The notes under the pieces: generated by a model | What the model was told of the DNA's origin: nothing | Seen by the model: the letters and a program-made list of their open reading frames with translations, nothing else | Databases searched by the model: none | Shown: positions 38,381 through 39,948 of the stretch, one piece after another | Layout of the letters: every line of letters starts with the position of its first letter | How positions within the stretch are numbered: the first letter of the stretch is position 1 | IMG/VR virus record: IMGVR_UViG_3300021375_000055 | Location: 1 to 44,143 of that record | Strand: one strand, 5' to 3' | Origin: a virus | DNA length: 44,143 nt | Made by a program: the position numbers and the translations under genes

Positions 38381-38603
38381 TGACAAAGCAACAACTTACA
38401 CAATTTCATCAGATACGGGTGTTGAGTTAACTTACAATATTAATGACTATCTCGTTGATACTGTTACTATACCCAATACCACTACAATAACTATTGATGA
38501 TGAAGTGTTTACAACTACACCAGATTATGAATCAAAGAAAATGAAATCTGAGATTGGTGTTGATATGATACAAAACGTAAAAAGAAAATTTGAGAATGAA
38601 TGA
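38373..38603 (+). CDS. Small unknown protein, 76 aa
   Basis: Its ATG lies 8 bases inside the end of gp46 and its stop overlaps the next gene, so it is likely translated by coupling. The sequence is Thr/Asp/Val-rich in its first 50 residues (DTVTIPNTTTITIDDEVF), probably beta, and ends with a basic helix (MIQNVKRKFENE). No homologue is recognised. It may act with gp46/47 or the nearby replication genes, but there is no direct evidence. Confidence 0.7.
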   Translation: MPDDKATTYTISSDTGVELTYNINDYLVDTVTIPNTTTITIDDEVFTTTPDYESKKMKSEIGVDMIQNVKRKFENE

Positions 38604-39027
38604 TTGGATATTTGAGAATAAAACAGTTACAGATTTACCGGAAGATTGTACTGGATTTGTTTATCTAATCACTAATACTATTACTGGCAGAAAATACATA
38701 GGCAAAAAACTAGCAAGATTTAAAAGATCAAGGCCCCCACTTAAAGGCAGAAAAAACAAAAGACGATACACAATAGAATCAGATTGGCAAACATACTACG
38801 GCTCAAACGACGAACTAAACAATGACGTGGCTGAATTAGGCGAAGAAAAATTTACAAGAGAAATATTATATTACTGTAAAACTAAGTCAGAATGTAGCTA
38901 TATAGAAGCGAGAGAACAATTTGCAAGAGGCGTTCTCGAAACAAGCGACTACTATAATGGCATAATACAAGTAAAAGTACACGGCAAAGGCATCCTAGGC
39001 ATAAACAAAACACAAATTAATGGCTAA
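38596..39027 (+). CDS. GIY-YIG nuclease-like protein, 143 aa
   Basis: The N-terminus carries the GIY-YIG pattern: GFVYLI at 20-25 and KYIG at 33-36, followed by a basic stretch (RFKRSRPPLKGRKNKRR, ~41-57) and SYIEAREQF near 108-116, whose Glu would be the catalytic metal ligand. This resembles Seg-type free-standing homing endonucleases of T4-like phages, without an obvious separate DNA-binding domain, so it may also be a repair nuclease. The frame reaches back to TTG 38590, but ATG 38596 is chosen because it leaves an 8-base overlap with the upstream stop. It lies directly upstream of the hairpin-rich noncoding stretch. Confidence 0.78.
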   Translation: MNDWIFENKTVTDLPEDCTGFVYLITNTITGRKYIGKKLARFKRSRPPLKGRKNKRRYTIESDWQTYYGSNDELNNDVAELGEEKFTREILYYCKTKSECSYIEAREQFARGVLETSDYYNGIIQVKVHGKGILGINKTQING

Positions 39028-39504
39028 TACAGAACCCTTCATGCTCCGTTTGGTCGAGGTTGCTCGACCCATCTTGAGGATATAGGCTAATTCCTATGTC
39101 CGGACTGATGTGCTAGAAAATTAAATAATGAGTGAGCTCTCCTGACAATTTGGAACTCACGGGTAGTCTTTAGTCGTTACTAAGGCAAAAGATGTTCCTG
39201 CGTTGTTTAGCAGTATATAAAGTCGTATCGCACAACCCCGACTTCCTATAAAAAGGTTATACTTTAGTAATGTGGTTGATTCCGAGGCGAAATGTCATGG
39301 AATTCGATTTACACTTGGCCGTATCAGGCTAAGTGTGATTGAAACACTCGGCGAAATAATCGAGTATATTAATCCAATAAATATAATAGTAATTAACTTT
39401 AGACCATCGAAGATAAAGAATATACATCAAGTATCACGAAGTGATACGAAGATGTGATGTTCGTAGAACATCAACTAGATGGATTTAAGCATTAGAAAGA
39501 TATT
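39028..39504 (+). ncRNA. Candidate structured RNA in a 477-base gene-free stretch
   Basis: There is no convincing gene, but at least ten stable helices: 39052-39069 (7 pairs, 4-base loop), 39078-39101 (9 pairs with one U-G), 39132-39160, 39168-39185 (7 pairs with U-G, loop CGTT), 39220-39244, 39278-39304 (with G-U), 39311-39336 (10 pairs with G-U), 39346-39365, 39424-39455 (5+7 pairs, GAA loop) and 39456-39472 (7 pairs). The four wobble pairs become A-C mismatches on the opposite strand, so RNA from the plus strand is favoured. The loop of the 39220-39244 helix (CAACC) could pair with GGTTG at 39274-39278. I find no tRNA, tmRNA tag, group I core or known riboswitch. Ends, promoter and terminator are not defined; boundaries are simply the flanking genes. 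Confidence 0.6.
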
Positions 39505-39948
39505 ATGACATTCGATACATTTATTGCCACCTTTCTGACTTGGACGGAAAGTGCGGTAGAAGCAAAAAAAGACGATGGATATCCTGTATGTCCATTTGCT
39601 CGTAAAGCGAGACTCCAAGATAAAATTCAATTTATAGATGCCCGAAGTTTCAGCGAGTATGAACTGTTATCGTTCGACAAGGAACGATATGAAATAGGTA
39701 TTGCGTGGATGGGTGATGGTGTTGATTCAGAAGCAATGGAAGCTCTAGCAAAACAGATGGAGGAAACAAATCCAGATCTGTTCTATTTTACTAGTACAAA
39801 CAAAAGCGGACACTTCGTTAAAAACTTTACGAACTGTATCTTTATTCAACTAAAGGGTGATATTATGGAAAAGAGAGGATATCTCAAAGGAACAAAATAT
39901 TACGACAGTTGGCCTATAGATTATTACAAATTAATTACCGGCGAGTAG
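39505..39948 (+). CDS. Unknown protein, 147 aa
   Basis: No family is recognised with certainty. The N-terminus has TFIATFLTWTESAVEAKKDD (5-24), CPFARKARLQDKIQF (29-43), then alternating strands and helices. A single Cys at 29 and one near 116 do not make a motif. It starts after the noncoding hairpin region with only a weak AGAAAG site. Its stop overlaps the end of the convergent minus-strand reading frame by 14 bases. It looks like a conserved small cytoplasmic phage protein, but I cannot assign a role. Confidence 0.7.
   Translation: MTFDTFIATFLTWTESAVEAKKDDGYPVCPFARKARLQDKIQFIDARSFSEYELLSFDKERYEIGIAWMGDGVDSEAMEALAKQMEETNPDLFYFTSTNKSGHFVKNFTNCIFIQLKGDIMEKRGYLKGTKYYDSWPIDYYKLITGE

Follow-up and report, generated by a model that had tools for sequence, protein, structure and literature searches.

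A conserved, structured RNA at a fixed place in the genomes of T4-like phages

What occupies the stretch of a T4-like gene block in which no gene is found? The window analysed here is the whole 44,143-base virus record IMGVR_UViG_3300021375_000055. Its T4-like block runs in the order late sigma factor, gp47, gp46, small open reading frame (ORF), SegE-type GIY-YIG nuclease, gene-free stretch, 147-amino-acid ORF and baseplate hub, with the hub gene on the opposite strand. The named phages nearest to the window by gp46 are PA5oct and Paride (50% identity), followed by Phosso and Atu_ph07. An original prediction, made without database searches, held that positions 39028-39504 are gene-free, dense in hairpins and oriented like the gp46 and GIY-YIG genes, and that they are a candidate for an undescribed large non-coding RNA. 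We conclude that a conserved, structured, plus-strand RNA is very likely here, and that it is kept at one fixed genome place by a large set of T4-like phages from marine and fresh waters. The features of the locus are as follows.

38590 to 39027, plus strand: SegE-type GIY-YIG nuclease (PF19835, E = 1.4e-36), 5′ of the RNA
39022 to 39478, plus strand: whole proposed RNA gene, based on homologue conservation and fold; ends inferred from conservation
39377 to 39383, plus strand: ATAAATA, a sequence like a T4-type late promoter that would serve the downstream ORF (function inferred from sequence)
39505 to 39948, plus strand: 147-amino-acid ORF of unknown family, 3′ of the RNA and variably present (18 viral loci; absent from L100, L105 and L107)

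Conservation places the inferred 5′ end of the RNA near GGCTAATACAG, overlapping the final GIY-YIG codons, and the inferred 3′ end after a hairpin that we call B; a folded length of up to about 450 letters is inferred from sequence alone. The ATAAATA element is found in aligned members that have the 147-amino-acid ORF and was not seen in L100 or L105, in which the ORF is missing. The ORF itself has no Pfam or PHROG match and also occurs in other contexts without the RNA (L011-L014, L017 and L018).

The stretch is gene-free and shares the orientation of gp46 and the GIY-YIG gene, as had been claimed. The only ORF inside it, a GTG-initiated frame of 61 amino acids (39272-39457), is not kept in aligned homologues apart from the near-identical L001. 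The claimed density of structure also held: the 477 bases fold on the plus strand with a minimum free energy of −135.2 kcal/mol, compared with −104.6 ± 6.2 for shuffled sequences (z = −4.95), and the minus strand folds less well (z = −3.19). The stated absence of a tRNA, a tmRNA and a group I core was confirmed: ARAGORN found no tRNA or tmRNA in the window or in 13 homologous loci, and no Rfam tmRNA or group I or II intron catalytic core matched the window RNA. No Rfam model matched the window at gathering score, and none matched 38950-39600 at E ≤ 5; naming the window RNA directly from Rfam was thus rejected. Three outcomes were to refute the original prediction: a lack of covarying pairs in homologous loci, translation of the region, or a match to a known RNA family. 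Covarying pairs were found in quantity, there was no sign of translation, and the window RNA itself matches no Rfam family. The candidacy is therefore supported, with the qualification that the 5′ domain of other members is RF01718 (Polynucleobacter-1).

Homologues were detected by DNA pattern, blastn and covariance model, giving more than 40 distinct viral sequences close to the window and more than 100 when remote relatives are counted. Querying viral contigs with the 147-amino-acid protein returned 18 loci, with the RNA upstream in 12 (blastn) and coding sequence in that place in the rest. A DNA pattern drawn from one hairpin returned 61 stretches; combined with the protein-found loci these amount to 45 distinct sequences, 36 of which have the full core. 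With a covariance model of the core (R1), additional copies turned up next to SegE in other T4-like phages, with E values down to 3e-11 and on either strand relative to SegE. One R1 match, in a Variovorax phage, was rejected because it reads by eye like a terminase coding region. The conserved-loop pattern occurs in at least 120 viral stretches and in five metagenome-assembled genomes. Five members of the family compared with cultured phage records by blastn gave no match.

By sequence the family falls into three clades: the window type, a type with the Polynucleobacter-1 5′ end (62 sequences) and a mostly divergent-SegE type, SIG (43 sequences). The sorting is rough, as simple patterns were used and some loci with co-directional SegE were placed in the third set. 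The block of late sigma factor, gp47, gp46, nuclease, RNA and hub is common to all three. The exception to this synteny is L156, in which the RNA lies among unrelated neighbours; on this 158-kb contig (3700-13963) it is upstream of two ORFs that resemble, by eye, a split CCA-adding enzyme.

Covariation was scored over 33 pairs, including a pseudoknot, in 26 of the sequences near the window. Paired cells make up 95.7% of the total, and both sides have changed in 21 of the 33 pairs. The covariation score is 0.515, against 0.204 for shuffles and at most 0.132 for slid controls; there are 153 cells with two-sided changes, against a shuffle mean of 43.8 and at most 30 when the partner is slid by 1-3 columns. 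The number of further pair types did not exceed that of shuffles in this alignment. A de novo covariation scan ranked these helices first or close to first in every clade. The possible loop-to-strand pseudoknot of the original prediction is confirmed as a pairing of 39176-39182 with 39265-39271. The parts of the RNA, in order, are these.

39036 to 39125, plus strand: 5′ domain of the window type, without an RF01718 match
39052-39058 with 39063-39069, within 39044-39046 with 39076-39078, plus strand: hairpin of the 5′ domain (two-sided changes in 39052-39069, 40 sequences)
39070-39073 with 39107-39110, plus strand: closing helix of the 5′ domain (two-sided changes, 40 sequences)
39078 to 39101, plus strand: variable hairpin of the 5′ domain
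39132 to 39160, plus strand: hairpin GTGAGCTC...CTCAC with inner TCC/GGA (100% and 98.7% of cells paired, two-sided changes)
39162 to 39200, plus strand: stem GG..GTCTTT / AAAGAT..CC, its loop holding the pseudoknot 5′ strand (two-sided changes in 6 of 7 inner pairs)
39176 to 39182, plus strand: pseudoknot 5′ strand GTTACTA (6 of 6 counted pairs changed on both sides in the 26 sequences, 95.9% paired)
39198 to 39213, plus strand: small hairpin CTGC...GCAG bearing a near-universal GCGTTG (alignments)
39221 to 39243, plus strand: hairpin AGTCG...CGACT with a covarying stem and the conserved loop UAYMGCNNAACCG (GGTACMGSACAACCGCC in remote members)
39245 to 39256, plus strand: hairpin CCT...AGG (two-sided changes)
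39265 to 39271, plus strand: pseudoknot 3′ strand TAGTAAT (covariation with 39176-39182)
39311 to 39336, plus strand: terminal hairpin ACACTTGGCC...GGCTAAGTGT (two-sided and one-sided changes, 40 sequences)
39425 to 39473, plus strand: double hairpin, A (39425-39454) and B (39455-39473); a similar pair lies downstream of the RNA in the inspected members of all clades

The loop letters of hairpin 39221-39243 are invariant across clades. Four helices with G-U pairs had been proposed to define a plus-strand structure, and this claim held only in part. Support is good for helix 39311-39336; 39078-39101 forms a hairpin whose sequence and alignment differ among relatives. The other two failed: 39168-39185 is not a conserved pairing and uses the pseudoknot 5′ strand, and 39278-39304 is not kept by relatives (it falls in a deletion in L005 and L008) and overlaps one copy of a repeated word described below. 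Across the conserved pairs, G-U cells outnumber A-C cells by about 74 to 16 (hand count), so the plus strand is favoured.

Promoters bear on the same question. Among the 31 loci with divergent SegE, 24 have a sigma-70 promoter at a nearly constant place, 229-262 bases ahead of the loop motif; none of the 82 with co-directional SegE has one, loci without SegE in reach being left out. By comparison, 0.28 promoters are expected by shuffling for the SIG clade as a whole. An intrinsic terminator follows the RNA in 12 of 43 SIG members (0.6 expected). Because the promoter is present only where SegE is divergent, we infer that the RNA is read on this strand and has its own promoter when the upstream operon cannot supply one. 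No plus-strand promoter was found at the RNA of the window, which is consistent with co-transcription in a gp47-gp46-segE operon. A promoter of its own, independent of the flanking genes, is thus seen in the divergent-SegE clade only, and there are no transcript data. Conservation, fold, pseudoknot, strand and independence from the flanking genes are shown.

SegE lies on the 5′ side in 105 of the 111 RNA loci found by DNA pattern. As an obligate partner of the RNA it was rejected, since cultured phages can have SegE with no RNA detected, and some RNA loci lack SegE or have another gene in its place; the adjacency is mostly shared synteny. The nuclease slot holds SegE or, by eye, a resolvase-like protein, and endonuclease VII or RusA in cultured jumbo phages. 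This alternation of SegE with resolvase-type genes (Hjc-like by eye, RusA or endonuclease VII) was noted at 38590-39027 of the window and at L006, L015, L121, L302, L304 and L311, and it raises the possibility that SegE here takes the role of a Holliday-junction resolvase. Phage records often label SegE GIY-YIG proteins 'NAD synthetase', a name that phrog_447 also carries.

The 5′ domain links the family to a catalogued motif. RF01718 matches at full model length immediately upstream of the core in five loci, L134, L093, L027, L067 and L036, with E values of about 1e-10 to 1e-26 and all five meeting the 37-bit covariance-model cut-off. The core 3′ of RF01718 is strong in L134, which is itself in the R1 alignment, and weaker in the other four, which are outside it (E = 0.02 to 0.3). 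The window RNA shares a homologous 3′ domain with these RF01718 carriers, which the common loop motif and its spacing support. The RF01718 core motif is present in 59 of the 121 loci with enough sequence, colinear and 148-192 nucleotides (mostly 149-170) before the loop motif; RF01718 is therefore the 5′ part of a longer phage RNA. The window RNA does not meet the 37-bit criterion and has no RF01718 match at E ≤ 5; it is not a member of RF01718 as defined, and it carries a different type of 5′ domain. Roughly a third of the wider family had previously been catalogued as a 141-nucleotide motif, not as part of a large phage RNA. A 2010 paper lists Polynucleobacter-1 for Burkholderiales and for fresh water or estuary. 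None of 201 genomes in the family of one Burkholderiaceae metagenome-assembled genome matched RF01718; the positive control gave no signal in that search. No description of the full-length RNA was found in the literature searched.

Near the 3′ end, two 7-nucleotide words follow ACTC and ATCT elements and flank the terminal hairpin. In the window they are assigned by position, which fits the two-copy word of the family.

39286 to 39293, plus strand: repeat word, copy 1 (GGCGAAAT)
39350 to 39357, plus strand: repeat word, copy 2 (GGCGAAAT)

In all clades the words are hypervariable between phages and match within each phage. The two copies are identical in 98 of the 101 members in which both anchors were found, over more than 12 different words, with a mean identity of 0.996 compared with 0.57 after permutation of the copies among phages. 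Because each clade contains related words, the 101 members do not count as independent events; most of the anchored members lie outside the clade of the window. The word columns covary strongly without being complementary. An intramolecular partner for the word was rejected (49 members have a match, against 52 expected), and neither the word nor its complement is enriched in flanking phage DNA.

Cultured jumbo phages have gene-free, unannotated gaps in the same slot (PA5oct/Paride, 121Q, GAP32, Serratia BF and Phosso), placed, like the window RNA, after gp46 and a resolvase-type gene and before the baseplate hub. Fold z-scores are −5.1 for PA5oct (L302:7867-8531; 76516-77180 of NC_071039), −3.0 for Phosso (20 shuffles only) and −2.3 for Serratia BF (L306:6700-7260). 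The PA5oct gap recurs with little or no change in 11 Pseudomonas phage records, in some of which short ORFs are called there. Conservation of the BF gap extends to 58 records and runs at 68-77% outside its own genus, coliphages 121Q and PBECO4 among them. The gap of 121Q is located as follows.

L311:2826-3663 (326508-327345 of NC_025447): gene-free gap of coliphage 121Q

The BF group has a conserved TATAAT and a terminator, and both sides have changed in 28 of 87 predicted pairs, a count that rests on few independent lineages and on a structure predicted from the same alignment. An unannotated structured gap with promoter and terminator was seen in L311 (121Q), L306 (BF), L307 and L308. Models R1 and R2, with filters off, detected no homology in the PA5oct, BF, Phosso or Atu_ph07 gaps. 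Only the slot is certainly shared with the window RNA family; homology is not shown.

The best-supported reading is a standing RNA gene with early or middle expression, its function unproven. In this reading, a large group of T4-like phages would carry a non-coding RNA gene at the block of late sigma factor, gp47, gp46, nuclease, RNA and baseplate hub. Its plus strand would be read through the gp47-gp46-segE operon in the window type or from its own sigma-70 promoter in divergent-SegE types, and on either route expression is probably early or middle in infection. The RNA folds into a pseudoknotted core with a lineage-specific 5′ domain, which in about half of members is Polynucleobacter-1, and it may act in trans as a structured RNA or ribonucleoprotein. 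It would display two copies of a phage-specific word of 7-8 nucleotides, one after a conserved GUGACUG..ACUC element and the other after GUGACUG..AUCU, and one putative partner, of which none has been found, would be bound twice and co-evolve with the word. For the non-coding RNA gene and this bivalent role in trans taken jointly we put the probability at roughly 0.55, in the absence of transcript data. That the RNA acts in trans through a bivalent word is an inference that we hold with less than even confidence: the repeated word may be a structural need and not a binding site, and members of the window and Polynucleobacter types could serve as a 3′ element of the operon mRNA. A bolder reading, which we regard only as a possibility, is a new superfamily of large phage RNAs acting in trans, which would go back to the ancestor of a broad set of T4-like and jumbo phages, coliphage 121Q and Pseudomonas phage PA5oct among them; the duplicated, fast-changing word would be a per-phage recognition code for a bivalent partner.

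A rival that remains possible is a cis-acting 3′ element of the gp47-gp46-segE mRNA, serving stability, termination or feedback, with no separate RNA. It is favoured by the position of the RNA closely after co-directional SegE without its own promoter in the window and Polynucleobacter-type clades, and by the hairpins downstream of the RNA. Against it, in the divergent-SegE clade the RNA comes with a sigma-70 promoter of its own and, in some members, a terminator, the RNA stays while the upstream gene is exchanged (SegE or resolvase-like) or unrelated (L156), and the fold is much more elaborate than an element of this sort would need. An RNA-only assembly, a cage or ring similar to ROOL or GOLLD with the words as intermolecular contacts, would suit a large, ornate, phage-borne, pseudoknotted RNA whose 3′ part is conserved and whose 5′ part varies, a pattern also reported for GOLLD (PMC12286853). 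However, any oligomeric state is inferred only by analogy, there is no sequence match to ROOL or GOLLD, no tRNA lies in the window or the sampled loci, and identical words are unable to pair with one another; we consider it unlikely.

Still less probable is a DNA-level site (for recombination, resolvase action, packaging or an origin) with cruciform hairpins. The variable word in direct repeats and the alternation of Holliday-junction-resolvase-type genes in the neighbouring slot speak for such a site, but the large excess of G-U over A-C in conserved pairs, the better fold of the plus strand, the pseudoknot (a feature of RNA) and promoters that point one way make it very hard to sustain. If the RNA were what is left of a self-splicing intron or homing element that travelled with the GIY-YIG gene, its position beside SegE at most loci would be explained. 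This reading is all but excluded, as there is no group I or II match in Rfam, the RNA is not inside a gene, its inheritance is syntenic, and SegE can be inverted or exchanged without loss of the RNA.

Few large, ornate RNAs are known from phages, and little is understood of what they do. The fixed genomic address of this one points to cultured phages that have a structured, unannotated gap in the same place, and the two-copy variable word makes a specific binding hypothesis testable. Among known systems, GOLLD and ROOL (RF01998 and RF03087) have Rfam models that do not match the window RNA, and their location near tRNA islands is not shared, with no tRNA in the window or 13 homologous loci. 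GOLLD resembles this family in being a large phage RNA with a conserved 3′ and a variable 5′ part; the window RNA differs in having no sequence match to it, in having no tRNA nearby and in being about half as long. ROOL is likewise a large, pseudoknotted phage RNA of unknown function, but without a sequence match and at a different locus. The closest relation is to Polynucleobacter-1, which occupies the same phage locus, shares the 3′ core of the window RNA and makes up the colinear 5′ domain of roughly half the homologues. The RF01718 model covers only 141 nucleotides, without the 3′ two thirds, the pseudoknot, the word pair or the phage origin; a motif attributed to bacteria is thus the end piece of an RNA that is widespread in phages and for the most part missing from family libraries.
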